From positions 28,973,927 to 29,037,926 of the forward strand of contig CM046870.1 of NCBI GenBank assembly GCA_025617745.1: a DNA stretch of 64,000 nucleotides, given 5' to 3'. Within the stretch, counting starts at the first letter, position 1; the number at the start of each line of letters is the position of its first letter. This DNA is from Heliocidaris erythrogramma (taxonomy: Eukaryota > Echinodermata > Echinoidea > Camarodonta > Echinometridae). Positions 251 through 59,065 of this stretch are shown here, in pieces. The notes beneath the pieces are model-generated. The model did not search any database, was not told where the DNA came from, and saw only the letters and a program-made list of their open reading frames with translations. A program made the position numbers and the translations under genes.

Positions 251-3200
251 GTAAGTTACTGGAGAATTGGATAAAATTGAGACGTTATGAGTGGGCTTAA
301 CCTATTTCCCAGTTTTAATCACCATTTTATATTAGCTATCTACTTTGAATCAAGTCTCTACAAGAAGTTTGAGTAAACATTAAAGAAGTTATGCATCAAG
401 TACTTTGCCCAAGTTCTACTCCAACCACTTGACAGAACCATCACTATGTGGGGCTGTGTCAATTTCGGCGGCAGTCACGACCTCTTAGTCGAAGAGGTAA
501 AAACACCAATATAATCAGCAGAATTTTGAGAAAGTACTTCCTTCTACATTTTAGGATGGTAGAATATCTGTTTTCATGCCAGATTCTTCAATAGGATCTT
601 TATCATCTTGATCAAGTGAAATTTTCAGACTGATTTTGGTTGGCGATCTTGCTCCTCTCCAGCACACATACATGTATGTGCTAGATATTACACACTTGCT
701 ATGGGAGGCGATTGCTCACGGTATGAAGGTTGAGAATGCGAGGTATTCTACAATAACCTTGCATAAGTGTGAGTACAACCTGCTTTGGTTCAAGTTTCGC
801 AGCACTCATGGGACCAAGCCTATGTGGGACTGTGTTGCGAATTCATTTCTGCACTAGAGTGTAAAACAGATACCCAAATAGCACCAAGCAAGATTTAATT
901 TACTTAACCCCTTCCATGCCACCAGATTTTTGAGCAATTGCCCAAAATGTACTTTCAAGAGTTGAATATTAAAATTCAATGAGTTTTTTTCTTGAGCAAA
1001 CTAGGCAAAGATTTATTGCATAGGAATAAACATTATATTGGAGGCACAAGTTTCTGTATGAGGAAGAATTTTCAATCCATTCTGAGCTCAAATAAAATGT
1101 TCAACACTCACAATTTTGGGCGGGATTTGCCACCCACGGCATGGTAGGGGTTAAATTGTCTAGATTACCTGATTCAGGGACTCTTCAAATCTTCCTGCAA
1201 AATTGGGGTTTCAGAGTTGAAAGTGACATTTTGAATAATTATTTTCCTCTTGTGTATAAATGATTTAGACTGGACCAATGCCCGCTAATACACACAAAAC
1301 CTATTGAAGCCTGCTCATTAGGTAAAGCTATGTTGGAGTACAAGCTTATCTGATAGCTTGTATATGTGTAAGTGGAATCTCGGAGAAGATTTACCAGAAA
1401 GTTTGATAATTGTTTGAGATAGAACTAAATATGCTTTGTATTCCACCACTCCGAATTGAGTGCTCTTACTGAAAAACAACAGCAAAAATCTATCAACAAA
1501 AGAATAAAAAACTACCGGTAGGTACATATATGTCGACATGGCTGCAATTTTCTTCGGTCAAAATAAATGTTGATCAAAAGCCTGTTTAACAACAACACTA
1601 TCACAAAATCTATTTCAGCAATGTAGCTTTATAATTATATCTCTTTTCCTATTAGGAAAAAAAAACTGACTTCAAGATATATTTAGCATGAATTGGAAAC
1701 ATGTTTCAGTCGCCACCATCCCCCCCCTGTCATTGCAATAACTTACTTGTAATATTAGTATTGCATAGGTTAACTGAAAGATTTTTCAGAGCCCTTCTAT
1801 AGGAGATGAATACTGTCTAGTAAATTTTATCATGTACATACTTTTTTGTTTACAGGGTTTATTTCCTATATATCAAAAAAGCTGCAATGCAAGTAACCTT
1901 GGAATATTAGCTAATTATCATTTCAATTTATTTTTCAATTTATTTACAGTGGTATAAAGAGTGATCAACTTCTTCGAACGGTAAGTTTTCTAAAACAAAA
2001 CAGTCACATTAATGCGATTTGTTTTGAGAATGTAATAACATTTTTCCAGCTTGTACCAACAATAATTTGAAAGCCTGTGATAGCTTTGAAGAAGTATACC
2101 GCAAGGTAATTTGGAAAGTGACGACTGACAAACAAAATATGAGTAATTTAAAGTTGAAAATTGCCGTTAACTGTACATCAAAAAGATTTCTCCCGCAAAC
2201 AAAAGTTATTTTTATAGTGGTTTTGCATGTGTGTTTGATATAAGATATAAAAATCACTGTAAGGAGCATGCAGTAATTTGCTGCATTGAGTGAAAGGAGA
2301 AATTTTCCATGTTGTGAACTTAACTTCTTGATTATTTTGCTCCTTTTTATTTGCCCTTTTAAACTAATATTCTCTTACGCCCGATATTCCGGCGACAGAA
2401 GGGCTCAAACATAAATTGTTTTCAAGTTTGTGAACTGAATAGTTTTGATTCCTGAAGTAATGTAGGAACTGAAATCTGTTGCGTAGATGTAATTAATTAA
2501 CCCCCCCTCTCTCTCTCTTTATCTCTCTATCTCTCTCTCTCTCTCTCTAGTTCACATCAGAAGCATTTGCTCTGGCTGCCTCATCTCTAATCCACCCACA
2601 TGACCTCCAGACAAGAATATGTGCTATGTATATGCTGTATGGATTGTACTACTCACAACCCTCTTCACCCAAGGTCAAGGTCAGTACATCTCTTCAACAA
2701 CATCAACAATAAGATTCATCAACATACTATGTGCATGATAGGCACTTAAGACAGGAATATTTAATGGCTAAATTGATCACAATTTATTCTTCAAATTGGC
2801 AACAATAATATTTTTCTTTCAGTGCTACATGGCTCTAATAACGTGTAATGTCTTTTAAAAGAATAAACATGGTTAGGAATTTTGTTGAAAAGTTCAAAAA
2901 TTGCCAATTTTGATTGAAAAAAACAAGGATTTTGAACCTCTCAATGTGTTGCCAATTTAAGGCTTATTTTAAAGCTTATTGAAAGGGTTTAGCATCAACA
3001 TAATTATGTGCATGATAGGTACTTAACCCGATGTCTACAGGAACTGGGTGGTCCCTCTATTAAGCCTAGGTGAATGATAGAATTCAGGAGTCAGTGGTTT
3101 GACAGCCTACAGACAAGAATATCTGCCATGTACATGGCCGTAAGCAGAAATTTCAAAATCATACTTTTTTTAAATCGGTTTTAGACTTTTAAATGATCTA

Positions 3201-6200
3201 ATATTGAAACCGATCATCTTGCCCCCCAGGAAAAAATTTCTGCATACGGCCTTGGCCATGTATATGTTATACATGGATTGTATTACACTCAGCCCTGGGC
3301 CCTCTTGCATATTAAAGAGTTGTGATTAAATGCAACTCCAAAGATTAAACGCAACTTTATTTTCAACCAAGCAGGATCGAGTATATGGGACTTACGTTTA
3401 AGTGTTTGAGTTGCGTTTTTAAAATGCAACTTTTATGCAAGAGGGCCCAGCTTTAAGGTCAGTATATCAACCCATTTATAGCATGTACATGTAAGTATCA
3501 TGTGGATGATTGGATTGGATGATTGGATCAAATCATCATGTGGATGATTGGACTGGAACCAGGTTGGTTCCTGTATTAAAGTGACAGTAAACTGAAGCTC
3601 ATAAATAGTGCCATCTTTCAACAGGATTTGATAAGTGTCTGTGACTCTCATTTTCCCATCATGCTCCATTCTAGTTTGTAAAAGCTTAGAATGTACCTGC
3701 ACACAATTTTCCATAATGCCAAGTCAAAAAATTGTTTTGAATATAATTTACCTATTATCCAAACAAGCTGTTTTTCAAAATTCCATATAAAATGCAATTA
3801 ATTTTCAAATTATAATGCTAATTTAGCAATCACTGTAAGAAGGCGCTGTTCAAGTTCTACCAGTTTAATGCCACTTTAAGCCTCGGAAACTGAGAGAATT
3901 TAGTAGTCAATAGGTTAACAGCCTACAGACAAAAATATGTGCTATGTATATGTGATATGGGTTTTATTACACACAGCCTTGCTCATGCAAAGTCATGGTC
4001 AATATATTAACTCAAATAGTATTTAAATACTATGGCCTTTATTCTACTACACTTTAAACATGACACTGGATTTAATATCGGTCTAAAGTTGAGTCTACAA
4101 ATTAAGATCTACCGAACATGCTTTATATAGACCCAGCATTTGGTTTCATGGTATTAGTAGAACACAGAGCTATGCACAATGGGTGACCTGATATTTTCAC
4201 TACCGACAGTTGCTTCAGGCTTTAGGTAAACTAAGGAAAAGTATATATATATATATGTTTTTGCTTTAAGGTAGAAATACACATAAACTGTCCCCAGTAT
4301 GGCACTGTTTTGGAAATTTTAAATTTGTAATGCAAAAATTGGCGCCAGGACAAACTTGGCATCGCTCTTGTGCCGAGTCAGCCCAGATCCACTCATGGAA
4401 CCATCACTATGTGGGGTTGCGTCAATTTTGACGTTGGTGAGGAGCTCTTAAGTTGAAGAGGTAAAAAAAAACAATATAATTCGCAAAATCTTGGGAAAAT
4501 ATTTCCTTCTACATTTCAGGATGATAAAATATCTGATTTCATGCCAGATTCTTTTATAGGATCTTTATCATCTTGATCAAGTGAAATTTTCAGGCTGTTT
4601 TGGGCTGGCTATCTTGCTCCTTTCCAGCACACATACATGTATGTGCTAGAGATCACACATAGGAGGAAATTCTTTGTGGTATAAAGGTACATGTATGGAG
4701 TGCGAGGTTATCTACACAATAACTTTGCATCATGCAAGATCAAAGTAGGCAACAAATATAAGGCATGCTCAGTCTCTCATTGTGCAAGCCTCAATACCGA
4801 CCTCTGCTGTTGTTACAGTAGAAAAACACACTACTACAGTATGTCTATGGTGTGAAAATAGTGCAATATTGCATACTGCATGCATACATTGACATGCAGC
4901 AATGAATGAAGGCTGAACTGTGAATATGTCTGCTGCCCTCTCTCATTGTGAGACTTGCATGTTTATTCTCATGTGCAGAATGGAAGGGGGGAACTTTAAT
5001 TGTTCTGTTTTAATTTTTATTACCATACTTACTGGATATTTGAAAAGTCTTTGTTCTAATTTATGCTTAGCTCCAACTTTAAAAAAAAAAAATACCAAAT
5101 GTTTTTTCCTTCTTGTAATCTTCTGTGTATTTAAGATCAGATCAAATTTGAATTTCATTATTTGTTTGTTATTTGATATTCTGATATTTGAGAAGGATAG
5201 ATCTGAAAAATTTCTAAATCCTTGTTGATATGTATCATTCATTAAAGAAGAAAAGGAAGAAAAGGAAGAAAAGGAAGAAAATGCTTTATTATTGCCTTTC
5301 TGGTAGATACATGCACATGTATATCGACTCAATACATTACATGCTGCAAAATGTACACTGTACATTTCAGCATGTTTGTTGCTGTTACAAGAATAGCCAT
5401 TGTTTCCAGTAGTTTCACCATAATAATTTTTAAATTAGCACCTTTTAAAATCTTTTATAATTGCCTATTTTAAATCCATATAAAAGAACCAAAGATTTTC
5501 ATTGCATATAGTGCAGGATTTACAGCAGATTATCTTTATGAAACTAATCTTTAGATGTTTTTTTAAAAGCTGTTTGGGTAACTTACTTTCAGGGTCAGAG
5601 AGTTGGTAGGACCCGCTGGTATTCCTGATGTATGGCGACATCATCTACGTGTGGGCGTATGTGTATACCCGCAGTAAAATAGTTTTCAAATGAAATCAAG
5701 TTGTTGATCATTTGTTGTGACGTTGAGGAAATGACCGTATGACTGAACTCTTGGGAAGTTCATTGATAAAAATAGTGAGGATATTTTTGTTGGCAATTCA
5801 AGATATTTTGAAGACCTTAACGTGGGTTTGAACAATACAGGAACAGAATTGGTGAACGTCAGAATAAACTAGCTTTGCGTACTGGTACTCAAATTGACAC
5901 TGATGTCAGATATACATGGGCAAATCCATGCTATTTTGTCCCATACAGTACGTAATTGACAACATTTAAGATTTACGATTTTTGTTGTTTTTAAGCTGAT
6001 ACACCCTCTGTAGCCCTAAAAGAGCTTGGATCAGACCCAATAGGAAGTACAATTGATACCTTTGATGTCAATTTGTGTTTATGATACCATAATACATGGT
6101 AACGTATGGGACATTAAAAACACCAAGGATTTATCGTTCTGTGATAACTCCTTGAAAAGACCAAATGCCTTCGACTTGCTCATTTTTCATTTCTCTCGTA

Positions 6201-9200
6201 CATTCTTCAGACAAATTGGTGACTTTATATTTAATTTGGAAAACTGCAACAAAGAAAAAAATTGCTTATTTCTTGTAATTCCCAATACCTTATCACCACA
6301 TTGGAAACATTTTCCTCTTTTACACGAACATAAATAGTAACTACTGAAATAACCCTTTAGAGACATTTTGTGTTTTGGCTCAATAACTTTTGATTTACAG
6401 CTCTAAAACTCATACAAGATACATGTACATGAGTAGAAAGAGCAAAAATGCCTGCAGACACTATGTTCATTTTTGTTGCCTGACCAGCTTGCGTATGATG
6501 CTGGGCAATAAAAAAACGAGAATAAGCTTTAAAATCCTTCAATTGGCAACGGATTGAGAGGTTCAAAACCATTGCTTTTTTATCAAAATTGGCAATGTTT
6601 TGTAATTCAACAAAATCTATACCCATGTATACTGTTTTTAAAGACATTACACCTAATAGAACCATGTAGCACTAAAAGAAAAATATCACTCTTGCCAATT
6701 TGAAGAACAAAATGTCGTCAGTTTTACCCTTAAGTAATTCCTGTCCTGAAAGCGTTAAACTTGTCAGAAATGGATCTCTTGAGAGATGACTCGGTGAACA
6801 TTTCTGAAAGGTAATGTTAGAATGAACATAATCTGGACTTTCTGATTTTGACATTTCCAGGCTTGATGTGTGATAATATTTACCAATGTGAACATTGTAA
6901 TGCAATTATGGTCTGTGTGTGGAGGTGTGTTTGATTATCTTGTTCAGCCCCTGATCAAAAGTACAGCTGTGCTGATGATGTCATTCAAGGGCCAGACTTA
7001 CAAATGACCAGGAAAGTGAGGTATCGGGACTACTGAAGGAAGGGAGGGGGTGTAATACCTGTCACAGCTGATATTTGCTCTCTTTATCCAAGGCTTGACA
7101 CTTAGTGAAATATGTGACAAAATTGACCAATTACATTTTTCTTGTTGTTGTTGTTGGTTGGCTTGGACTCCTTTGGTTGGCCCAGATTAACAGTAATAAT
7201 TGCAATGTTTCTCATTTTGTCTTTGTGTAACTATTGTTGATTCATTTTTGCACTGACTGTTGCACATACAGGTACACGTAAAATATATATGTATTCTTTC
7301 TCTCTTTAACTTACTCTGTCTTTATTAATCTCTCTATTTCACTTTGTCCTATCTCTCTGTCTCTCTCTCTCTTTGCATCTCTCTTCCCCTCTTTCTAATG
7401 TAGATCTGTATTCAAGGCCTTTCCTATAGGTTGCAAATCACATGGAAAGGAAGATAAACTAAATTTTTCACTTACATGTTAACACATAAATTTACAAACA
7501 GAATTTTTAGGTTGCCCAACATGGGCAACCACTAATTTTGTCTTGCTCTTTGAATGTTTGGTTGCCCTAAAAAGCAGTTTAGTGGCCTCTGGCGCTGGGC
7601 CACTACTTGTGTTGAGCCTCAAGTGCTGTATTTGTTGCAGAGCTCTTGCTTCACATTTATTTGGGTTGCCAGCAAGGCAACTTAACAGTCCCTTAGGTTG
7701 CCTTTTTGCTGGCCGATGGCATTTTCATCTGGCTCTTGACAGATGATACTTGTTACTAAATACACTATCTCAATCCTCTCACATTTATCACCCAAATTGC
7801 ATTTTCTTAAACTGATATTTCTATGATAAATATTTCTGGTTTAAAACAGAGGGATACTTACCACTGCTAAAAGGCATTGCCCTTTATAGTGGAAGTGCCA
7901 TCAGCTGTGATAGTACAACATTCACCACTTTATATATGTTGGTTTGGCACAGAGAGTTCTGTCAAATCTACACTACAGGAAGCAAGAGATCTCAAAGTTG
8001 CTTGACTACTTTGTTGTTTGCCTGATAGAAAGGTGCAAAGAAATTCATGGCCAGTAGATGTCCATTTCAAGAAATTCTTAAGTTTTTGACTATTCTTGGA
8101 CTACTTCTTGTAGATGTACACAACACATTTCAGTTCTTCTATCACCTAAAATGCAGTGGGTTATTCAATGTACATGTAATTTCTGTATATCAATGATTCA
8201 TTGTTTCTTTCCAAAACAGATAGTTTAACATTTTGACCAAATTTGTTTTTGTACCCTTCTGTCGTGCACATAACCACTGAAGGAATTGAATAGATAATTT
8301 TCGACACCCTTTAATTCGACTGCCTTCCTTTGGGCACGGGCCACTAATCACCAAGGCTACAAATTTCTTGGAAACTATGATCTAAAATATATACTCAATT
8401 TGCTTAATCCAGCTTCACACTACAAACAGGAACCATTATTGCGCTTTTTCGGTGGAAAAGGGAATCAAGTTACAGAAAAGACGAAAGAATATAAAAGGTG
8501 AACAGTTAGCAACACTATTTTGAGATAATCGCAATCCAGTTTAACCTGATGTAAGCCCCACTGGCAGGATTTATTTGTAATCACCTCTCTGCATAGATTT
8601 AGCAATTTAGCAAATTACTTCTGATCATAACAGTTATCTTCCCAATGATTTAATTATGTCCACAACCCAGAAGCTGTCAGGGGAGATCATTTCGTTCACG
8701 TTATGTGCCAATTCAAGGTAATATGAATAAGCCATTGCCAATCTGGTAGCTTAATTCACACATTAATCTGCAACCTAAGAACTTAATTTCCTTTGTAAAA
8801 TATTTGGGAAAAGAAATGAATATCAAGTGCATCTTTTGTCCAAAGTACACATCGTACATATTCACCAAATATGATTGAAAAATCATTTGTCACAATTATT
8901 GTAGAATTAAATTAGAAGATGTTTTCTGAAAGCTATACTGATAAGCCCTGTTTTAGAGCTCATGGTGCATGTGTGAACCCAAATTTGAATAAAATATAAA
9001 AGTCCATGAAATAGAAAAGAAAGAGCATCAAGCCACTCCTCGTCATGCAGTACCCACACACCATTCAAAGACAGAATCTGCATCAAGTCAGTCTTGAACA
9101 AGCCAAGACTCAAACTGATTTAATGACATACTACCTTTTGCCATCAAAGTTGAGTGTTAAGCTCAGCTTATCCTGATCATATTGTGGGCGATCTTTCACT

Positions 9201-15200: not shown

Positions 15201-18200
15201 CAAAATCCTCGTTTAGCCCCAACGATATTACGGGACTAAGCAAAATTTTGTGTAAAACGCCTACAAGAGAAGGGAATGTATATATGGATGCAGACAACCA
15301 ATATACATTACAGGAAATAAGCTTTAAAATGTTTTGGCAGTTCTTTGGCCACATCTTTCCAAGACATTTCAGTCTGTTTATCGTTTGAACTATTAATAGT
15401 GATATTATCACCTCAGCGATAAAAACTAAGCAGTTTTAATAGAAATTCATCAAAAAAATGTGTTTTCGCCCTTCTGATAGTCTAATGATAGACAGCAATT
15501 ATTTAAAGGCTAGATTGATCACATTTTGTTCTTTAAATTGGCAACAATATTATTTTTCTTTTAGTGCTACAAGGTTCTAATAAAATGTAATGTCTTTAAA
15601 AACAACATACATGGTGAGGAACTTTGACAAAAAGTTGAAAAAGTTGCCAATTTTGATTTTGTTCCCTATTTTGAACATCTCAATATGCTGCCAATTTAAG
15701 GATTTTATTGCAAAACTTATTTTCCTTTTTAACTTGAAATTCCTGGCATCAAACGCAATATGGTCATGCAACAAAAATGGACGCAGTGCACGTACGGGCA
15801 CATCGACTAGTCTAATCACAAGTCGCTTTACATTTATTGAGAGTGTATTTAAACTTGCAATATCTGTTTAGAATACAAATATTTGTTGCACATATTTTGA
15901 ATATAGCATTGTGAGACGTAACATCTAACATACAGAACAAAATATTTGTCGGTGATTGGCAACCTTTAAAATTCATGTCATATCGTGCTGTTCTCTAATG
16001 CTTCCCAGACGGTGATTGTAGCATTCAAAGTTCGGTAAACCCTTTCAAGATCTTGTTGATATTCTGTCACCATGCAGACGCAGCAAAAACAGAGAAAATT
16101 GACTTGGAAATGTTTTGGATATGAGCTTCAAGAAACAATCTCGGACATTATGATGATGGATGTGCGGTGGATTGGGAATACAAGTCCACTGTAGTCATTT
16201 GCGGATTGAGGAGGCACAACTTGCCTATTGCTCCCCTTATAAAACCCCAAATTGTATAACTTCAATACAAAAAAAAAAGAAAAAAGAATGAGCCCCACCC
16301 CTCCTTTTTAAATTTTGAATCCAAAGGCCCCAGAATAATCTTAAACCCCCTTTATTTGCTTGTCAGAGATTTTTTCAGTAAATTAATTAGCAGCTAAAAA
16401 ATCTGATACCTTTTTGTATTTGTGTATTTCTTTTTGCTTCTTAGATATCCTTAATGAAAACTTGGGCCTGCAAGACCTGAAAATATTAATTTATTCATTT
16501 ATTTTTTTTGCTTGTCAGAGATTTTTTTGATTTGTGTGCCCCCTGCCCCCTTTTCACAGAATTCTGGATCTGCTCTGGATTGCAGCCGTGTGGTGCTTGT
16601 ACATTTATACACGTCCTATTTTATGATAACACTTTATGATGTTTGCCTATAAACACAGCTGATTTGTTCTGATTTTATATGTTTTGATTCCAAGATAATA
16701 TAATAGCAGAAAAACAATATTTCTCATTATTACATATATAAGGCATTTTAGCGGCGCATTAAAAACGCATATTTTTGCCGCTTGATTTGCGCGTGTAATA
16801 TGAGAGGATATTGCACGGAACGCTGAATTCCCCATAGGCTACAAGTACTAAACTTGCTGTGCAATATTTTGCCATATTTTGTCTGGTCTGTTGCGTGCTC
16901 GCAAATAATGCAACGCGTACACACATACGCACATGACGTCATAAAGAGGTTAAGTCAAACTTGTGTGATCACAATGAAGTATGATGAGGGGTTCTATTAA
17001 CTGAATGTGGTTGGTTAATGATTTTTATTAAAGACCTTGGATCGTCGCAATCCATGGGCCTGACTAGTTGGCCTGACTCGGGGAAATTCGGATACAATCG
17101 GGTCCAATCGTGCGCTACCGAAGGAATGTTATTGCCGGATTCCTCGCGCGATCGTTAACTCGAATCCCTCCATACGCAACCGACCAATGAGATTCAAATA
17201 CTGGAATAAAGAATGCGCGATCTTGTTTACTCAAATTGGGGTCAATGTGCGAACTTTTATTAGCTGCGCACAATAAATTGAAGTCGCTTTGAACTTTGAT
17301 CCAGAGAAAGGAGCAGCCGACTGTAAAAGCGCCCATACATGTAGATTGCGACGATCCAAGGTCTTTAAGTTCTAAATCATTTTCTTGTAGGGTATAGATA
17401 ATAATAATTATATTGGATGGCTTTTCATGGAATACCAGAAAATATTACACTCGTTATGGCCAATATTGCACTCATCTTCGATTCGTGCAATATTGGCCCT
17501 AACTCGTGGAATATTCTCTGGTATCCCATTCAGAGCCATTCAATATAATATAAATATTCAAGTTGCTTTTATAAGAAATGTACTTTTCCAAAAAAGTGGG
17601 ATTAAGATTGAATAGTTGTCTTATTTTAACAAGTGTCCAGGAAAGATATCTTCATACACTGTAGCTGCATTTAATGTATATTATAATGATTATCATCTAC
17701 AGTATAATGACATGAAAAGTAATTCCTTTTAAGCATATATACACTAATAAACACCATGATTGATATGATACAGCAGTTCAGAATATAGATTTTTTTTCAT
17801 GGATACTTGTTAACTTAAAGATCACATTACAAGAAAATTCCATCAAAGTAAATATTGGCTTAATACTTTTTATTGCATATATGGCATAAATTAAACAAGG
17901 TTATCCAAATTCAACGCTTGGAAACATTTGAAGTAATGATTATTATCAATTATAAAACGGTAAAATACAGCCCCCGATATAGCAGCTGAAGAGTTCCTCG
18001 AACGCTGCTGAGATGTGTGACGACACACCAGGGCCCAGTCCTGTCTAAGCAGACGATGTCCCATAACATCTTACACATTATTCAGTGCCTGTTTTGTCAT
18101 CTCCTCTTCACTTATTTCTCTTATTTGACTAGCGTCAGTCTTAATGTTAGTCTGTTGCCTCACTCTTAACTTCGTGTATGGTATTATTTTGATGAAAAAT

Positions 18201-24400: not shown

Positions 24401-27400
24401 TTATCTTACAGCACTCTTGGCTATCTGTAGTACGTTATTTCTATGAAGCTGATTGCATTTGTGCCAAAAAGAAAGTTATTACCCTTCCTCTTTGAGTGAC
24501 TTGGTGCAAAGATAGCCAAGTATAAAATGAGTTTGGAGCCTAATTATGAGATGAACTGGGGGGCGTTTCATCAAGTGTCTTGTCAGTGATTTTTACCGAC
24601 AAATTTGCTCTCAGCCAATCAGATGCAAGGATTTCAGTAGCTTATAACAGTTGTTGCAACTTGTCATTGATGACAAGTTTTATGAAACGGCTCGGGGAAA
24701 AAAAATGTTGTAAGGGGGGAGGGGCAGAACTCACTTGCCCCTTCCTTGTAAAAACAATGAACCCTGCCCCCCCCCACAAAATCCCCTGTACTTGAGTATT
24801 TAAAACAAGATGGTACTGAAAGTATTTTTTTACTCCTCTGGAGGGGGGGGGGGGGGGGGGTTGGTGAGGATTGGGATGGAATTGAATCGGCCTATACTTT
24901 CCCTTTGTTTCCCCCTTCCTCCAATAACCATGTTGCATTCTGCATTTGTTCCATTTCCCATCCCTTGATTTGTTCCTTAAAAAGCAATTTGAAAACTTTT
25001 TCAGATCATTGATACCTGATACTGCCGTTCACCCCTTATAATCTAAGCCAGCGAAAACTGTGAATCAAACCCATTGGATTGACTAAAGACGGAATGATCT
25101 TCATCGGGTTAATGATGATTCATCTGGTCGCCAGAGAGCATCATGATGCTCTGATATTTCCATGATAACCAATCATTCTGAGATCATCGAATATGATTTG
25201 TGTGGCATGCCATCTGCCAAGCATTTCATAAATGATGTGTTTTTGCTCGGTTTACAACAAGACTTGTAGCGTGTGAATCGCCCAATGCATGGGTCACTCG
25301 GTGTCACACAAGAATGCCGTGAGATAGTCATCTTCTTCAGAATGTCAGGCAATTATCCTAATGTGATTGATACTGTGTAGTCTAATGATAAGAGGAAGAT
25401 AGAGAGGAGATAGAAGAGGGGGAGCAGAGGGTGGGAGTCGGGGGGAGGAAGGGAGAAAGGGGGAGGAAGAGAGAGTTGGAGGGGGAGAGAACAGGGCGAG
25501 AGAAGAGGGTGAAAAAGAGACAGAGAGAGAGACGAAGACAGATAGGGAGAGAAAAAGAGGGGGAATAAAGGATGAGAGAGGGTGAGAGAGAGAGAGAGAG
25601 GGGGGGGGGGGGAGGGAGAGAGAGGGGAGGGAGGGAGAGAGAGGGGGTGTAGCTGAAAGATGGAGACAGACCGCGAGACGGACTGAAAGGATGATAAATA
25701 AGGAAGACATACAAGTACTTAAAACAAAAGGATGTAATCAAGGCACCAAAATGTACAAAGAAAAGAAGCTGACCCAAACCCTGTAAAACAATCTGCACTA
25801 AATATAACTGCGTCTCTAACACTTGGATATTGCAAAGGAGACGTCTTCAATTCTACTTTATGTCCTCAATGAAGATATGCACCTATCAATCTTCTTGTCA
25901 GTAATATGTTAGTTGGGGAGTATTGACAGATACCCAATGAATTTCCTATCATTTGAAACTAATTTGATATTGCATCTCTTCACTGATTCCATTTAATGAT
26001 CTTCCTTGTCTACTTTCACTGATAGTATTATGACTGATATCCTTCCCTCTTTGCTCTCTGTCCCTAGATCCGGAAGGACCTGGAGCACTGGCAGGCCTTG
26101 TTAAATCTCTCAAAGGAGCGACTAGATTTTCTACCATTTGAAAACATTGTGATATTATTTCTCCTCAACGATTCTATGTAACAATCTTTCTCATCTACTT
26201 TCATTGATAGTATTACGACTGACATCTTTCCATCTTTGCTCTCTGTCCCTACATAGATCCGGATGGACCCAAAGCACTGGCAGGCCTTGATGAATCTCTC
26301 CAAGGAGCTCAAAGACCAGGGGCACCTCGACGCAGCCTACATCTTTCTCAAGATGCACAGTGACAAGATCTTCCAGTTCACAGCAACACTCAGACACGTA
26401 AGTAATCTGGAGTACATCGCCTGCAGAGAGCCAGAAGGGTGTTAACTCTAAGTCTGTGTGAAATGATGGGCATTAGTGCCATTCTGGTACTCAGCAGACA
26501 TGTTTAGTAATACTTCCTTCCCCCACCCCATGAGAAAAGTCAAAGATTGAAGATTAAACAAAAGAAGAGTTGCTGGAGTTTGTTAGCTGCATTAGTTTAA
26601 TGTGCATGATATAATGATAAGAAGCATTTACTTTTGACATAGATATAAGGCCAAGTAAAATTGATTCTTAGTTTCTCGTCAGGATTTTTCGAAAACTGTT
26701 ATTTTTCCAAGATGGCCGCCGCACATACAAATGCTATTAGGCATGGCTTCCCGCTGTATTTATATTCTTCTTGGGTCCCTATAAACCCCCAAAAGGCATC
26801 AAGTTATAATTTTAGGGGTCTGCAGCAAAATGATGGCGGTTTAAAAAAAAAAAATGGCGGGCCCAAAAAAGGATGCAAGCGGGGACAAGAAACTATTTAT
26901 TTGGCTAAAATAATTAAAAGGAAGATAAAATTTGCAAGAGACATATTCAGTTCTGCACTTCTTGATGAATGAAAAACGAGAACGTGGAAACAAGGTAAAA
27001 TTTCTTCTATCTTTCTGCTTGTGTAAGTGGTAAATCCTTTGCCAAAGCTGCACCTGTTTCTGGAACTCTCTCCATTTGTACTTGAGAGGATTGATTGTAT
27101 TTATTTACCAATAACAAGATACAGTACATTATAATATTTACAATATTTACAGGAAAACATCATATAATTAGATCATGGCAAAAACAAGGGAGAAGCTTGG
27201 AATCAAATGAAACGATAAAGCTAAGCTTAAAAAAGAAACAAAAAATACATGTGTACTTTTAATTCATAACTCAATTCCACCTCACTGTAGGTTATCTTTA
27301 GAGTGATAAACTGATAATTGTCTTTAAATTTTCAAATTCGATGTGTCTCAAATGAAGATAGTTTACATGTAGATCATATTTACATGGAGAAGTTATGATC

Positions 27401-30400
27401 GTATGGAATCAGAGTAAAATAATCAGTATTTTGGAAGTTCAGCAGCACTTTTGTTCTCTCATTTTGCATACAAGAAGCTGCATGTGTAATCATTATTGCA
27501 ATTTTCTATGTCCTGGGTATTCATCCTAGCCAGTTTAGTACTAGTTCTCATAATTTTCTTTTCACCTTAAGTCTACATTTAGGAATTCATCAAATGAAAA
27601 TATTTGTCCTCGTTATGCTTCCTCTATTTCATGTCCGATGGGTTGTGCATACATTTTTAACGATATATGTGTGTACATGTATTTTGTTCAACTTAAAGTT
27701 ATTTTTTCACAGATCCTGAATCTTGAAAAGCATTTTTTCCTCTCTGCCTCTGTCTCACATAAGGCCTCTAACACAAGACACAAGACTGGATACAGAGAAT
27801 GTATACGAAAGATGGAATTGATTGAAATGGAATGGAATGGAATGGAATGGAATGGAATAAAATGGAAAAGACTTGAATTGAAATGAATTAGATTGCATTG
27901 GATTGGATGAATTGAATTGAATGGAATGGAATAACATTGATTTGGATTAAAAGGAATTGAATTGAACTGACTTGAATTTGATTGTTCTTCTGTCCCCTCC
28001 CCTTGTCTCAAACTACGCCTCCTACACCAGAAATAGGACGGGAGACAGAGAATACAAAAGATGGAATTGAATTGAATTGAATTGAATTAATTGAACTGTA
28101 TTGGATTGAATTGAATTGGATCGTATTGAATTGAATGGGATGGAACCTGTAATTAATATAAATTGAAATGAATTATTTAATTTCAATATGGCACGAAAAA
28201 GAGACATGATAACGAAGCTTTTCGACCTGCACTCATCAGGTTATCACGCAGGTATATAACAAATTACTTGAAATCAACTATATTATACTCGGTGAACCCG
28301 GACGCAACCCAGACGCCGTAATTTCAGAACAATCGCAAAGCTTGGACGAACTCCTTTTGTCTGCACAGAAGAGGTTCTTGCGATTGGATATAAGCAGCTT
28401 CCAGAAAGCGTAAATGCGCTGAGCTTCTGGCCCGGGACATAATTGAGAATTGATCGTCGGCATAGCTTTGTGCGCAAGCTGGATTGTTCAGCAAGTGGAG
28501 ACCAATCGCTGAATCGCATTTGGCTATCTTTGGTCTGTTAGCGTGCATTTCAGATTTGCAGGCACGGACGGGCTGCGTGCGCTGATTGGTTGTACGGTTC
28601 CGAATAATCGAGGGAATGTGTTGTTTAATGCGATCAGCCAACCGCTGAGAAGTACGGCCCACGTACCTGGCATCGCACCGGCACTGAAATTGGTAAATAA
28701 CATTACTCAAGTGGGGTGTGGGTAGTACATCCTTGCTAGTTGACGGTAGCATCCTGTGTGTAGAAAACACAATGTGTGTCGAAACCGCGTAATAGCAACG
28801 TGACACTGCGTGTTTGATCTGACTGGCGTATTTGTCAGATACCTTACCCCTCCAGGGTAGTTTGAGATACACGGGGCATTTGGCAGGTCCAAATCTGGTG
28901 TCAGATTTGGATTGTGCCTCCAGCGTCCGTGTTATGGTGCGAGATATAACATGCTCAGGGTAACCATTGTCAAGGAGGATAGTTTTGATTTTCGCGATTT
29001 CGGGAGCTAATTTGCACGCAGAGCAAATCCTATGGGCGCGGCACACTAAGTTTCTAATGAGCCCAATCTTGTATGAAGTTGCACTGTACGAGTCCCATCT
29101 CGTGTATTGCCCGGTGAATGTGGGCTTGCGGTAGACGGAAGTGATGAATTTCCCATCACTTCTCTCAACGAGAACGTCGAGAAATGGGAGCGCATTGGAC
29201 AGTTCAATTTCACATGTGAATTTTAGCGCGGGATGGAGCTGGTTCAGTTGTGTAAGGAAAACCTCACACGCTGCGCGGTTATCAAAAATTGCAAACGTAT
29301 CATCAACATACCGACAATACACATGTGGGACTATATTAAGATCGGTGGCGTTCTGTAGCAGGCGCATTTCATGAAAGCCAACAAAGATGTTAGCAAGCGC
29401 GGGGCCTAATGGGGATCCCATAGCCACACCATCTATCTGTGAATACATCGTATCATTGAAACTAAATTATTTAATTGTTCTTCTGTCCTCTCAACTGTCC
29501 AAATACAGGCCTTTTGCACCAGACAAAAGGCCAGAGACAGAGAATACAAGAGATGGAATTGAACGAAATGGAATGAAATTGAATTGAATTGAACTGTATT
29601 ACATTGGATTGAACTGAATGGAATGGAATGGAATAAAACTGAAATGGATTGAAATGAATTATTGAATTGTTTTTCTGTCTTCTCAACTGTCTAAAAAAGG
29701 CCTCCTACACCAGACAAAAGACTGGAGATGGCGAATATGAGAGATGGAATTGAATGAAATGGAATGAAATTAATTGAATTGAACTGAATTGGATTGAATT
29801 GAATTGGATCGTATTGAATTGAATGGAATTGAATGGAATAACATTGAATTGGATTGAATGGGATGGAACAGAATTGAATTGAATGGTATAGAATAGAATT
29901 GACATGAATTGAAATGAATTATTGAATTGTTCTTCTGTCCTCTCCCCTGTCTAAATCTAGGCCTCCTACACCAGACATAAGACCGAAGACGGTGAATACG
30001 AGAGCTGGAGAGCTGGCAAAGAGCTCATGACGACAACCTTCAATCCTGATCTCCTAGAGGTAAGGAACTCTGTCATTACATCTTGTTGGCACCATGGAGT
30101 AGTAGTTTGTCCTCCTATAACATGAGTTTGAACATGTGGGACTAGGCCTATGCCATGCTTTCTATCTGGAAAAATAAACATTTTGCCCAAATGGCCTAAA
30201 AAAATGTACAGTTAAGTGAAAAATTAAGGGTGCAGGGAACGTTTTAGCTCTTGAAAGCTCTAGAAGGGCTCTGGTAATTAAATGAGAGATGACAAGGCTC
30301 ATGATGACAACCTTCAATCCTGTAACAAACACACGTTTGAACATTTGGGGCTGGCCTTAACGTAAATTATATGGTGATGAAGAGAAGCTTTACCTAATAG

Positions 30401-33400: not shown

Positions 33401-36400
33401 CATCATAAATGAAAAACAAAACGAGATCTGTTTTATGATAATTGCCCAAATTGTTGATTTATTAGAGTGTACTTGGATGTATTTAGATGTATAGCTACAT
33501 GAATGAGGATTGAGAGAGGTACAGTATGTTAAGATTCTCCCAAATCCGGGGTCCTGTATCATAAAACTTGTTATCAATGAATAACAACTGCCCGATTTTT
33601 AAGCCAAATTTGCTCTCAGCCAATCAGATTCAAGGCCTTTAGTAGCTTATAACAATTATTGTAACTTTTTATGGATAACAAGTTTTGTGAATAGGGGCTC
33701 AGGAACAGGTCCAGGAAGAATGCAGACACTTTCCATTCCTTTATCCATGATAAGTAAAACAATGAAAGTGTATGCATCGTTCCTAGGGATAACAAAATTG
33801 TGTGGAAACACCTTTTTTTCTTCATTTCGTTCCTATTCATTCAGTTGTACAGTATCTATTGTCTTGGGCATGTTCACATGATCCATAGTTTATAACGTAT
33901 ATTTACACCCATCTGATTAAACAGAGATCCTAGATAATTTCCCAATGTACTGCACCATGTCTACTTTTACTTCTTGCTTTGGTCCTTTTATAGGAGATTG
34001 TGCTTTCCCAGCAGATTGTGTAGAACATGTACTAAATTCCCCCAAGAAATTCTCCTAGAAAAAAAAAAAACCCTCAAAGCTTGAGAACATGCATGATCCC
34101 GGTACAGGGATTTATCCTATGTAGAGTTTGTCCACACCTCCAAATACCTGGTACAGTCAAACCTGCTTTAACAACCACCTTGTATAGACAAATCACTGCA
34201 AATTAATGCTATTTTTGTGTTCGACAAACGGGCGAGTTCACCGCCAGTATGTCACAATTGACTGAGATTTGTATAGATTTTGGGATCTCATTTTTCAAAC
34301 ATCCATAACTTTCTTATTCCTTGTCCGATTTCTTTCAAACTTTTGCCATCCTGTTTTTCTTATTTTCTGCTTTCACAAAAAACATTTTATTACCAAGGTT
34401 GGATTGCCCTTTAAATGAACCTGTACATAAAGACCACCTTTCATGTTTCCCTTGAGCAGTCTTTATATATAAAGGTTTTTTCTCTATTTTCTGATCTGTT
34501 TTTCCCCCCAATCAAACGTTTTCGTGATTGGTAGGATGTGGAATTGATTAATAATCATTTAATTAGTGATAATGGATTTCAATGTTTTACCAGTCAAAAC
34601 AGCTTTTGCACCCATCCTCAACTTCCTAAACATAGTTCATGGTAAAGGGGAAGTTTTTTATCATTATTTAAAAAAATAGGGAAATTGACATACGTATACA
34701 AAAGATTGTTATTGGCCATTCCCTCTCCATTGACAACTTGGCTGACTTTCAAGGCTTGGAAAATACTTTTAGCCATGTCTCTGAGGTTAAGGAAATATTT
34801 ATGTCATAGGATGTGAAAGTTGACACATTTTATTTGTTTTTATTTGATCTTGTTTTGTTAAAGTACATTGTATATTACTGTGCATGTGTTTGTGACCAGG
34901 TTGAAGCGCAGTGCAATGGTTTATGTAAAGACAAGCAGGGAAAATACAAACAAATAAAGATTAAAGTGATGAAATTCTCTGAAGAAAACTGCATGGCAGT
35001 CATATTTTTTGCACTTGAACTTGAACCGGGGCAAGTGACTTTTTGATCTCCGGGGCGATTAGTCTCAACATGTTTTTTCATGTCATTCAGTACATTAAAC
35101 TGGTCTGATGGACTATTCTTTGAATGAATTCACAATGCCATCAGTCCTCTTTTACCAACCATCCTGAGAATGTAGTCATTTTAGCTAATCCTCCGTAAAC
35201 CTCATTGTTGCTATGGAGCTGAAGCCACACCCGGTCACCCCGCTGAAGATGCAGCAGTAGACTGTTACTGATTCCATCGTAATAATCGTATCCTGCGTCC
35301 TCGTAAATCGCAGTCACCATATCGCCGTTTTTCATCAATTTAATGTAGAGGTTGCGCGAGTTTGACCATTTGTTAGCATGCATTACAAAGTAGTAGGTCC
35401 CGTTGATTTGGCACGTAAAAACACTCCTTTGCGGATCAAAATCATTGCCGATATTTACAAATTCGTGGTTGAACTCCAGGATGCGGTCATCGTGGGTGGA
35501 CGCGGTGACGACATTAGTGCTCCCAAATGAGAAAGCAGACCACCGTCGTAGTGCATGTGAGTTACGACCACTATCGCCGGGTTCCCCTTTAGGTCCCCTC
35601 GGTCCCTGATGCCCTCGTGGTCCCCTGACGCCTTGCGAGTTGACTGCGCCATGGGGCTTGCCAGGGGCCCCTGGTATACCGGGGTCCCCTGCCGGCCCCC
35701 TCTTGCCTGGTAGTCCTATTGGGCCCTGGTCCCCTTTGCTTCCTGTCAGACCAGCGTAGCCTGTTGGTCCTGTATCACCCTTTGGGCCCTGGATTCCGGG
35801 AGGACCGTTTATGCCATTGTTGCCATGGTTACCTGAAAAAAAAAGTTGGAGATTATTTCGCTGTCCATCATTTCCTATTTATGGAGTTTATGTCTATGAT
35901 ATACATGTACATGTACCAAATTTGCAAACAATCTCGCTTGTGGCCCTAACTTTTAGATTCTTTTTCTGCTTCTGTTAATTCATAAAAAGTGAATCTATTG
36001 TCACCAAAGTAACAAACTCCCAAGGAAAATTTTAAAAATGAAAATTTGACATGTTGTAAACTCTGGCTGCATGGGATCTATGGGAATGCATGTTGAACCC
36101 AAATAGAAAAATACATTCAAATTGTTAATAGGTGACTTGTTTCAAAATGAACTGCTTTAAATTCCTTTTTGACAATTTCTTTACCTTTTTTCATAATAGT
36201 ATCTAAGAACAAAAAAATGAAATTCAGACCCCAGCTGGAACAATAGTTAGAAAATCCCAGCATTTCATTGTTTTTTCTAATAAACAAGAGGCCTGAGAAC
36301 AAACGGAATTGATTAAAACCAATCCAGGTTCTTGTCTTTTGGGCTTTCAGAGTAACAAAGAAATAAAAGAGGTTTAGAATCAGCCATGTCTGCAGGCATT

Positions 36401-39400: not shown

Positions 39401-42400
39401 ATCTGTTTCTCTCATTTTTTTGTTTTTTTAAGAAATAAACTAAATTCCAGGGTGGACTTCCCCTATAACCATAAGACAAAATAAAGATCAGAGCAAAGTG
39501 AACGTCACGAAGCAAATGTTGGAGCAGTGCAACCTTACCTGGTAAGCCAGCTGGTCCCTGCACCCCAGGGTAGCCAGGGTTCCCTTGCTGACCCGGTAGC
39601 CCCCTCTCACAGCACTCTCTGCATGGCCCCCTCTCATCGTGTCCAGGAGGGGGGCGTTTCGTAGGACCTAGACCCTCCCCGTGGGTTAGTCCAAACAGCA
39701 CCAGACCCAGAGAGAGTAGAAAAGACTGGAGGGATAGGCCTCCAAGTTCCATTGTAGCTGGAAGAAATAGAGAATATAAAATAGGAATTTTTAAATAAGA
39801 CGATGTTATAAGATATAAGATAAAAATTAGAAAATATAAAGTATAAAGTATGAAAATACAAAATATGAAAGCTAAAATCTAAAATGAATGTAACATATAG
39901 TGTTGCTACAAGGTAATAGCTATGCATGTGTGCTTGTGGGTGAGAACATGTAGCTCTATATATGAGCATTATAAGGCTCTGTCACAATTCTTTGTAATAA
40001 TGAATATGAAGAGCATACAGGGGAAATTTTGATAAAGGGATTTTCATTGTCAAATTTGCTTTCATGACCTTTTGATAATTAGAATGAAAGCTTTTAAGCT
40101 ATTTATTTTGAGATTAATGTCCTTCTGGCTCTCACAAGTAGCAGACAATAGTCAGGTTCACACGGAGGGAGCTAAACTTCAAGTTTCACTTGTAGTTTCG
40201 GGCCTGTGTGAACCCCCATCATTGTTTAATAGTGAGCTGTTGTTTTGTTAACTTGAAGTTTCGCTAACTTAAGGGATTCGGTAACTTTGTGGAGGTTTCA
40301 TTTAATAACTTGTTGAATTTTGATATCTGTCTTGTATAATGATGTTCAGATGGATAAACAAATAACCAGGCACAGAAAGGTTTTCAAATATATAATGCTA
40401 TCATTAAGGTATCTATGACTGAATACTCCCATTTATTATATGGCCATACGCTTTAGTCTAACAGTGAGTCTGAAAATGAGTCTGGCATTTCCGGTCACTT
40501 GCATATGTTTACTTTTGTGAAGCACATGATGATTTTGAAGTGCTTTTTTTTTTTCCTGGACTTCCTTTTTATACCATATTACATACACTGATAGCATTGT
40601 AAGGCCAGGCAGCTCAGATTTTATCAAGCCTCTCCACAGTTACCAAATAACTTTAAAGTTTAAAAATTACAAGTCCCATATGAATGTAGCTAATATGATA
40701 TTGTTTCCTCATGTTTTATGTTCTTCCTTATTTGTATATTGAGTCATGAGCATGACAAACAAAACATCCTCTGAGAGATCTGTTGTGAAAGGAATCTAGG
40801 TTGGTAGGAGTAAGCATCATCAATGAAAGTGATTACAAGCTTTATTCTGTTGTTTGTTACGATCAGACTGTCTCGTCCTTGGTAGGTGTTGTCCAATTTC
40901 CACAGTGTTCTTGAACCGGTACTGAACTTCCTCTCTCAATAGAGTGGTTCACTGACTCACCCCATCCGAGGTGTAGCTCCTATTATTTCAATCGTCACCC
41001 CCATCTCATCATTGAATGCCCCTTCCCCCCCCCCCCCCCCCCCTCTTTGCTCAGGGGATGGGGGATAGGCTTAACTTAGCCAGGCCCTGTACTCTTCGTT
41101 TTGGGCTTTGGGGATTTGTGGCTCCTAAAATTTCTATAATTGCAATTGTCAACCTCCTCTTATCATATAAGCTCATGTACAGTTTTGGTAGCAAAAAGGA
41201 AATTGGAAAGAAACATGTTGAATATAGTCTCATGTTGTTTTGCATGTATCAAAAGATGTTTGTACAAGAGAGTTTGGTATTCCATCCATTATTTCCGGTG
41301 AATTTTATCGTAAATATATGGAAGGAACTCTGGATCCCGGCAATATACTGCCCTAGGCTAGGACCGTTCCACCCTGATGGTTCCCTGCACAACCATTTTG
41401 AGACTTCGCACGGATAGCATGTGCGTCACTAGGGTTTGAATGCATGTATGGTGTATAGTGCACGCTGAAATTGTTGGGTGTTTGTATCCCTGACCCAGCA
41501 CCTAAATTATTTTTTGCCTCTCATTTATTTAATATGCCACTTTAGGAGATGAAATCTTCACAGAATCTTTGTATTGACAGTATCTTGCTATTTATCAACA
41601 AAAATCCAACAAATCAACAAAAATCCAACAAATCTGGCGAAAAGTTTTTGAGGGCTTACCAAAAGTAAACATTACCTTTAAATGCCATCCTCTCCTTGCC
41701 CAGGCAGTGGATATGAGGATGGGGGGGGGGGGGGGCAAACTCTTGTCATTCACAATACAGGGTCTAATCCAGACCCCCCCCCCCCCCACCCCTGATTATA
41801 CCCGTTTCTGACATGAAAAAACAAATATTTTGTGCATATATTCCTGCATATATTCCCTGCAAATTATTTGATTTGCAAATAAATGTTATGAAAGCACACC
41901 AACAAATTAATAAATTACCAAGCTCCAAAGCATTTCGCATAGAGTGTAATTCAGACATAAACCGCAGGGGGCAAATTAAAAACCATTTTTTTGTGTAGGC
42001 CTAAAATGATCTGGCAAGTGGGGGAAAAACAGTACCTGCTCACAACAGAGGCTGCTGAGTATACTCATTTTGCTTTGTGTTATGATAACGGAAATGTAAA
42101 GTGTACCATGCATATGTCTCCTTATTTGGCTTCAGCTTTTTTTTTTTATTGGGGGGGGGGGTCGAGGGGGGCAGGGCAAGGGGTTAGCACGTCATCTGTG
42201 AGCAAGCATTTCAGGTCAGCTAGTGATTCGAAGAAAAACACAGTGGAGCACGCACGTACGTTTGATAGTCGTCTGATTCATTTCACTTTGTGAATGGGGA
42301 CCTCTTGCCCTGGCAGATAACAACTGTTTATTAGTATATCAAACTGGATGATCAAAAATAGGAATCTAATAAGCGACAGGGGCGTGCTTGTTGGGGCAGA

Positions 42401-56582: not shown

Positions 56583-59065
56583 ACACCCTCTCTCTATTAC
56601 CTATTGAAATGTATGCAGTCCGATGATATGATTATTTAGCATATGTTGATTAGTATTTTTTTCATAATTTTCATTTTGCAATTACATGTATCTCACTATT
56701 CATCAACTAAAATCAAAGAAATCTGACAATATGATGAATTCTATTAATCCATTTGAGGCATATTCCAAGAGTTCATTTTTAAGTGAGTAGCTTGAATACG
56801 TTTCTTCCAACAAATGAATATCAAATTTTGTATTTATAGGCCTACTTGACTGCTGGAGGAGCAAGATTGAAATAATTTCACAAATGCTCTTCTAGGAACT
56901 TTCAAAGGGCAAATGCACCAGAGGTCGTCCAGCAATGACTTACATATAGATCAGTTAGAAAAAGACTCTTGTCTACCAAGGCAGGAACTCCCAAAGATCA
57001 TGGAGAATAGAACTGAATGGAAAAAGCTTGTCAAATCAGTGCGAGTTATAGGCTCAACCTAGTTGTAGTAATAGGCCTTTACCATTTATTCAAATCTTCA
57101 TGTAGAAGGGCATTGATTCCTATCACACAAGACAATACATGAGTGTTTGGATTGCATAAAATCACTAAAAAATGACAACCAGTGCCAGTTTGGCCTGAAA
57201 GTAATCCTTAGAAATACATTTTTACTTTGTACCCGGTTATGCACTCCCTTTCATGAAGAACATTCATTGTCCATTAACCCTTTCAAGACAGGGATTATTT
57301 AAGGGCTAAATTGATCACATTTTGTTCTTTCAAATTGGCAACAATGATATTTTTCTTTTTATATTGCTACATGGTTCTAATAAGGTGTACGGTAATATCT
57401 TTGAAAACAATATGCATGGTTACACATTTTGTTGAAAAGTTGAAAAAAATTGCCAATTTTGATAAAAACACTGCTTTTGAACCTCTCAATGCGTTGCCAA
57501 TTTAAGGATTTTATAGCGTATTCTTGTTGTTTTTTTTAATTCCTGGCATAAAACGCAATATGGTCATGCAACAAAAATGGATATTGTGTTTGCTCTTGCA
57601 TCTGGTATATCTTTTAAAGATCTGAATCAACAGCTATTGAGCCTAACCACAGAATGTGGTCAGTTTAGATGTCTCGAAACGGTGAAAAAGAAATATTCAT
57701 GTTGTGATTATTCCTTTGTGTGTCTTTTCTTATGTAGCAACTTCATGGCATTCATAACCAATATCAGCAGATGAAGCAAGACATGGGTTTTCAGGATAAC
57801 CTCTCAATGAAGCTGGTTAGGGAATCCATGGCTGATCACATAATAAAAAGGTAAGCTATAACCAGTCACTTTTACTCCATACCCATCGATCCCCACCCTG
57901 AGCCCAGGGCAGTGTTTCATCACGTGGCTTGTCAGTGATTTTTACGAACAAATTTGCTCTCAGCTAATCAGATGGAAGGATTTCAGTAGCTTATAACAGT
58001 TGTCGGTAAAAATCACTGACAAAACAACGCTCCCCTGTTTGCTCTCTCCTTTACGTCCTTTTGCATCTTCAACCTCTTTGCATTTTCTATATCTCTTCTC
58101 CCTCTAGTGCAGGTACCTTTGGCTGAGCCCCCTTCCCCTCATATACATCTTATTTGCCCTTTTTCCTGTTTGGCTTATCTTGTTGCTTTCATTAGTCTGT
58201 CTTTATACAATGTATGTATGTACCGTATGTGGATCCCTCTTTGTTTCCACTTTTCTCTCTCTTTTTCCTCCCTTTTCCTCCTTTTCCTCCTTTTTCCTCC
58301 CTTTTCCTCCTTTTTCCTCCCTTTTCCTCCTTTTTCCTCCTTTTTCCTCCTTTTTCCTCCCTTTTCCTCCCTTTTCCTCCCTTTTCCTCCTTTTCCCCCT
58401 CTCCCCAACCCTGTTTTCACCATTACCCCCCTCTCTCTCCCTCCCTCCCTTTTGCTGTCTATCTTTCTCTTTCGCTTTCTGGCATTCACTGTCTCTCCTT
58501 ATTCCTCCCTCTCCTTATTCCTCCCTCTGTCCCTTCTCTCTCCCCCTTCTCTCCCCCTTCTCTCCCCCATCTCTCCCTCTCTCTCCAATGCTCTCCCTCT
58601 CCTTCTCTCCCTCTCCTCTGGATTTCTCTCTCTCTCTCTATCTCTATCTCCAATTAGAGACAACCTTACCAAATTCCTCTTTTTAGTATACAGTTGCCCT
58701 TGATATCAAGTTGCAATCAATTTACCATTGATAAGGCATGGCCCTGATATGAATGTCCATACACAGAAGAAATAGAATTGATACAGAAGAAATAGAATTG
58801 ATGAAGAAGAAAAAAAGGAAGACTATTGTTCACTTCTTATTCTTGTTACTTTTGCAGGATTCATGCTCACCAGGCATCTGATGATGATGAAGATGATAGC
58901 GAACAAGAACCGGAAGCTAACCCAGCCCAAGAGAGAGCTGCTAGACTTGCCTTGATCAAGAAGAAATCTTTCTCTAGCAAAGGACAGGTAAGAAGAAGAT
59001 GATGATGATGATGGTGATGATGATGGTGATGATGGTGATGATGGTGATGGTGATGATGATGATGG

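Follow-up and report, generated by a model that had tools for sequence, protein, structure and literature searches.

The SNAPC1 gene of Heliocidaris erythrogramma carries decayed direct copies of the edges of exons 3, 4 and 5 in the adjacent introns. The reading that best accounts for them, and one in which we have considerable confidence, is neutral local tandem duplication ("stuttering") with a breakpoint that now and then falls within an exon. The material is a window of 64,000 nucleotides from one assembly (GCA_025617745.1, contig CM046870.1, positions 28,973,927–29,037,926 of the forward strand); positions given below are those of the window and of its forward strand unless marked (−). 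A first-pass annotation of this window had recognised the copies upstream of exon 5; it had missed the copy downstream of that exon and the partial ones at exons 3 and 4.

Exon-edge copies within SNAPC1

The identification of the gene as SNAPC1 in the first-pass annotation is borne out by Pfam PF09808 (E 2.6e-44) and by the alignment of exons 1–6 with human chain C of PDB entry 7xur (E 1.3e-37), which covers exon 5 and continues into exon 6. The coding part of exon 1 is at 96–250 (end approximate), exon 2 at 1949–1980 (approximate), exon 3 at 2551–2679, exon 4 at 26257–26397, the real exon 5 at 29961–30059 and exon 6, for which no copies were found, at 57738–57850; for exons 8 and 9 the borders are guessed. 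Exons 3, 4 and 5 are 129, 141 and 99 nt long and, as read from the sequence, both ends of each are in phase 0. Intron 5 also houses a gene for a collagen and C1q domain protein at 35141–35878 (−) (Pfam C1q, E 9.7e-30), of which an open frame near 39600–39770 may be the first exon.

Upstream of the real exon 5, blastn finds four copies, at 27742–27816 (71% identity), 27958–28065 (81%), 29455–29557 (82%) and 29640–29748 (85%), and exon 5 scores 63 against this flank, compared with a maximum of 28 over 100 shuffles. In each case the copy is part of a unit in which a pyrimidine-rich acceptor region and 49 nt of exon 5, counted from its start, lead into a tract of GGAAT/GAATT pentamers. Unit 1 (27716–27816, exon part 27764–27816) is followed by a tract at 27817–27957; unit 2 (27958–28065, exon part 28017–28065), in which the acceptor AG has been lost, by a tract at 28066–28158; unit 3 (29455–29557, exon part 29509–29557) by a tract at 29558–29650; and unit 4 (29640–29748, exon part 29700–29748) by a tract at 29749–29911. 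Between units 2 and 3 sits an element at 28183–29444 (−), with AATTATTTAATT at both sides and with reverse transcriptase and GIY-YIG matches that both fall under the Pfam cut-offs; from the pairing of these two domains we take it to be Penelope-like. In the intervals that do not cross this element the units are spaced 253, 191 and 261 nt apart.

Over the 49 exon positions, copies 1–4 agree with the real exon 5 at 38, 40, 38 and 42, respectively; indels are absent from this part except for an insert of 4 nt in copy 1. In the ungapped copies 2–4, the 38–42 matches in the first 49 nt give way to 11–14 in the next 50, and the cut reads GATGGA^ATTGA in all four copies. Period-5 autocorrelation is 0.69–0.73 in the four tracts, compared with 0.28 immediately before copy 1 and 0.23 beyond the real exon, and within the array the pentamer is confined to the junctions where a truncated exon meets the following unit. 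All four tracts have their pentamer variants in a common order, the score of each pair being reached by at most one (0 or 1) of 300 block shuffles. In its description of the array, namely four degraded acceptor and half-exon copies, one place of truncation, continuation as pentamers and a unit of about 190–260 bp, the first-pass annotation was therefore accurate.

Exon 4 has a plain tandem copy, at 25941–26119, that consists of the last 127 nt of intron 3 and the first 52 nt of the exon (26068–26119), lies 185 nt upstream of its source and is 81% identical to it. Its exon part is more alike to the source (45 of 52 positions, 87%) than its intron part (104 of 132, 79%), as expected if one copy alone is constrained. 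Copies of the other exon edge follow exons 3 and 5. In exon 3 copy A (3060–3300), the 3' half and its left flank are present as interrupted pieces at 3106–3136 and 3255–3296, with a donor-like GTCAGT near 3458, and in copy B (3876–4007) the left flank and 3' half are joined by a decayed donor region (78% identity over 3922–4007). The 3' half of exon 5 recurs in intron 5 at 30284–30322 (85%), 276 nt downstream.

A test of both flanks of 10 exons (100 shuffles each; for exon 10, about the first 200 nt of the exon) places exon 3 downstream, exon 4 upstream and exon 5 on both sides clearly above shuffled sequence. Exons 7, 8 and 10 also beat the shuffles, through GAT, GGA and GAA low complexity, and these matches are excluded from the copy count; exons 1, 2, 6 and 9 did not rise above their 100 shuffles in this test. 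The window also contains a dispersed repeat family, at 2748–2980, 6521–6745 (−), 15490–15721 and 57285–57522. On either side of its copy at 2748–2980 lies a direct repeat of 33/34 nt (2717–2749 and 2993–3026, 91% alike), which is either a long target duplication or else a piece of the exon 3 tandem.

Occurrence elsewhere in the genome

Searches of the 1.06-Gb assembly (26 contigs) separate the two components of the exon 5 unit. With exon 5 alone as query, the matches are the exon itself and copy 4, the more decayed copies 1–3 being missed, whereas unit 4 as query recovers all of the exon 5 units and gives at least 52 matches in the genome. At least 47 of these lie outside the SNAPC1 array. None of the 47 begins before query position 102, and the exon part ends at 109, so that they are matches to the pentamer only. 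The four outside loci that were read have the pentamer in common and otherwise share a separate 142-nt match in one pair. For exons 4 and 5, the exons covered by this search, the acceptor and exon parts found matches at SNAPC1 only, at the sensitivity used, and the exon 4 duplicate found its own pair as its sole match. We conclude that the pentamer is no product of SNAPC1 but a microsatellite common in this genome. Of the genome-wide satellite that the first-pass annotation had set against its own proposal, one part is found: the pentamer is dispersed, and the acceptor with its half-exon is, at this sensitivity, local. The motif itself is that of human satellites II and III, (GGAAT)n; here it forms short scattered tracts of mixed GAATT and GGAAT.

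A base rate comes from 82 exons among 186 listed matches (112 Helicase_C and 74 myosin), each taken as the HMM-matched part of the exon together with flanks of 1.5 kb. The sample combines the best 30 of the 112 Helicase_C matches, the best 30 of the 74 myosin matches and 22 of the other 82 Helicase_C matches, chosen by hand in order of rank; matches with an in-frame stop, nearly identical twins, close neighbours and a few more on contig C2 were passed over in this last set. The sample represents two families, and the rate is a rough one. Five of the 82 exons have direct copies that score 42.1 bits or more within 1.5 kb, and none has inverted ones. One of the five, L032, was set aside as an exon-edge case, being a repeat of more than 1 kb with an in-frame stop that is likely to be a transposon or pseudogene.

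The remaining four appear to be exon-edge copies, and copying of this kind is therefore not special to SNAPC1. A Myosin-head exon at L065 (G000:C6:24200670-24203828) has three upstream partial copies of its acceptor and 5' half (70–83%), L046 has one acceptor and 5'-half copy, and L016 has two 3'-half copies, one of which includes the donor. At L076 (G000:C20:27075825-27078965, positions 1507–2640 of the locus) the intron after a DEAD-box helicase exon consists of GGATT/GAATT pentamers and holds two decayed 3'-half copies of that exon, again a combination of an exon half and a pentamer array. Period-5 stretches of this kind occur at two of the 82 loci, L076 and L063. The latter (G000:C19:36127884-36131159, positions 1780–2080) is a myosin intron made up mostly of GATTA-type pentamers, without exon copies.

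Mock segments drawn from the introns of the same loci had direct copies in 63 of 828 cases and inverted copies in 28 of 828; these segments are non-independent within a locus and some overlap exon copies. Against the direct mocks no enrichment of exons was found, whether L032 was kept (5/82, Fisher p 0.83) or left out (4/81, p 0.51). Two candidate regularities did not survive this comparison. Within the window, four of the seven loci with near direct duplications touch exons, which had suggested that exons are targeted; this was rejected, sampled intron segments being duplicated as often. A fixed position of the cut was likewise rejected, as the sampled exons of other genes break at about 43–99 nt.

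Origin of the copies and of the pentamer

Neutral local duplication would account for both kinds of copy. A duplication whose right end lay in an exon would leave an extra acceptor and exon 5' half upstream, and one whose left end lay in an exon an extra 3' half and donor downstream; an intact exon with both splice sites survives in the other copy, so that the duplication would be tolerated. For exon 5, the common GATGGA^ATTGA junction points to one founding event with amplification afterwards. We propose that one duplication created this junction, that a pentamer of the GAATT type, a kind common in the genome, then expanded there, presumably by slippage, and that unequal exchange multiplied the resulting unit of about 260 bp to four truncated copies, the Penelope-like element being inserted later into the array. 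The common variant order suggests that the tract was probably long already before the unit multiplied. The direction of the duplications and their neutrality are, like this order of events, presumed rather than proven.

Two observations count against this account. The copied exons of SNAPC1 (3 of 10) exceed the sampled rate (4 of 81; p 0.011), though the gene was picked for its odd look, and the breakpoint depth is similar in exons 3, 4 and 5, at about 47–54 nt from the exon start, for which we have no explanation.

The pentamer might have been present in the intron beforehand and have promoted the duplications by template switching or unequal pairing, the exon edge being carried along. The abundance of pentamers in the genome, the homologous order of the SNAPC1 tracts and the second, independent array of exon half and GGATT/GAATT pentamers at L076 all fit such an origin. 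Simple duplication would, however, leave a tract to the left of unit 1, where there is none, and the exon 4 duplicate and the copies at L016, L046 and L065 have no such stretches. We regard a driving pentamer as possible, with the balance of evidence tilted against it. Growth of the pentamer at the junction, as the neutral duplication account has it, appears favoured by its restriction to the interval between a truncated exon and the next unit; a left-hand tract may also have existed and been lost.

The first-pass annotation proposed the exon as the cause of the array, its own purine repeat probably having grown into the pentamer. Such a seeding would agree with the onset of the pentamer exactly at exon nucleotide 49 in all four copies and with the lack of pentamers before copy 1 and beyond the real exon. 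The proposal sits poorly with the occurrence of the same microsatellite at unrelated loci, with its absence from the exon 4 duplicate and three of the four sampled exon-edge cases, and with the equal duplication of intron segments, and we now consider it improbable. What stands of that interpretation is a local array of exon 5 edges with one cut, interrupted by a Penelope-like element; the satellite seeded by a coding exon is what has been weakened.

Selection for splicing decoys or poison acceptors that tune the output of SNAPC1 is less probable still. The acceptor AG noted in the first-pass annotation for copies 1, 3 and 4 is confirmed, with copy 2 lacking it, and is found in the exon 4 copy as well, in each case with a pyrimidine-rich tract; in copies 2–4 a TGA follows in frame after 17 codons, soon past the cut. 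Neutral decay alone could, however, leave the AG in three of four copies, one acceptor has been lost, the exon and pre-acceptor parts are similarly decayed, both exon 3 copies and one exon 5 copy are 3' halves of no use to an acceptor decoy, and intron mocks are duplicated at a similar rate. A decoy role is conceivable and finds no support in these features; judged by their sequence, the copies look like non-functional debris. Finally, a mobile element or dispersed satellite that had captured SNAPC1 sequence would explain the dispersal of the pentamer in the genome and is otherwise hardly credible, given that SNAPC1 is, at the sensitivity used, the only locus to match acceptor and exon sequence from exons 4 and 5.

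Relation to exon stuttering

The closest known parallel is exon stuttering in chicken, described by Hron et al. (2026; PMC12954441) as direct tandem copies of exon edges with the splice site in the adjacent intron. The repeats described there are imperfect and mixed, both exon-derived and intron-derived, and extensive variation of intron length between individuals is a further feature. Of 236 stuttered introns, 190 are on dot chromosomes, where they make up 3.4% of introns; the tie to GC-rich genes and dot chromosomes is presented as an association rather than a definition, and among other vertebrates the authors found no stuttering except in GC-rich genes of gerbil (PMC12954441).

The published screen uses blastn-short with a threshold of 42.1 bits (PMC12954441). 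Applied to SNAPC1, it gives proximal matches of 42.1–48.1 bits for exon 3 downstream, exon 4 upstream and exon 5 on both sides, copy 4 alone of the four upstream copies reaching the threshold. It also returns one proximal (exon 8) and four distal (exon 10) matches, all of GGA/GAA low complexity. Twenty shuffles gave no match of 20 nt or more. With the introns inverted there was no proximal match, and every distal one came from the GAA run in exon 10.

The SNAPC1 copies resemble chicken stuttering in several respects: they are direct, tandem and imperfect copies of exon edges with a splice site, pass its threshold, extend across the exon border into intron sequence (127 + 52 nt in the exon 4 copy, the acceptor in exon 5) and are likewise a mixture of exon-derived and intron-derived repeats. 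They differ in setting. SNAPC1 is not on a dot chromosome, being 29.0 Mb along the 41.9-Mb contig C18, and contigs C1–C21, at 37–79 Mb, are unlike a bird karyotype. In place of GC-rich sequence, the window is AT-rich, with a GC content of 0.376 (0.328 in the exon 5 array minus the Penelope-like element), and the locus has interspersed repeats, old copies (71–85%) and AT-rich pentamers. A tandem genomic duplication across an intron–exon boundary is also described for potato RdRp (PMC4974935), and the copies of exons 4 and 5 similarly span an intron end and exon start; in the potato case the duplication produced a new spliced intron, of which there is no evidence at SNAPC1. In the literature covered, which lies outside subscription papers, no report of exon stuttering in invertebrates was found.

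For annotation these copies carry a warning, since partial exon copies with splice sites may pass for exons; at L016 a copy fragment overlaps a Helicase_C match above the Pfam cut-off. More tentatively, and against somewhat adverse odds, stuttering may be pervasive in this AT-rich, dot-less animal genome, at a frequency per exon similar to that of the chicken dot chromosomes and driven partly by ATTGG/GAATT pentamers rather than by GC content. If so, this would argue that exon stuttering requires neither GC content nor dot chromosomes, and the old, decayed copies would let the fate of stuttered exons be followed.
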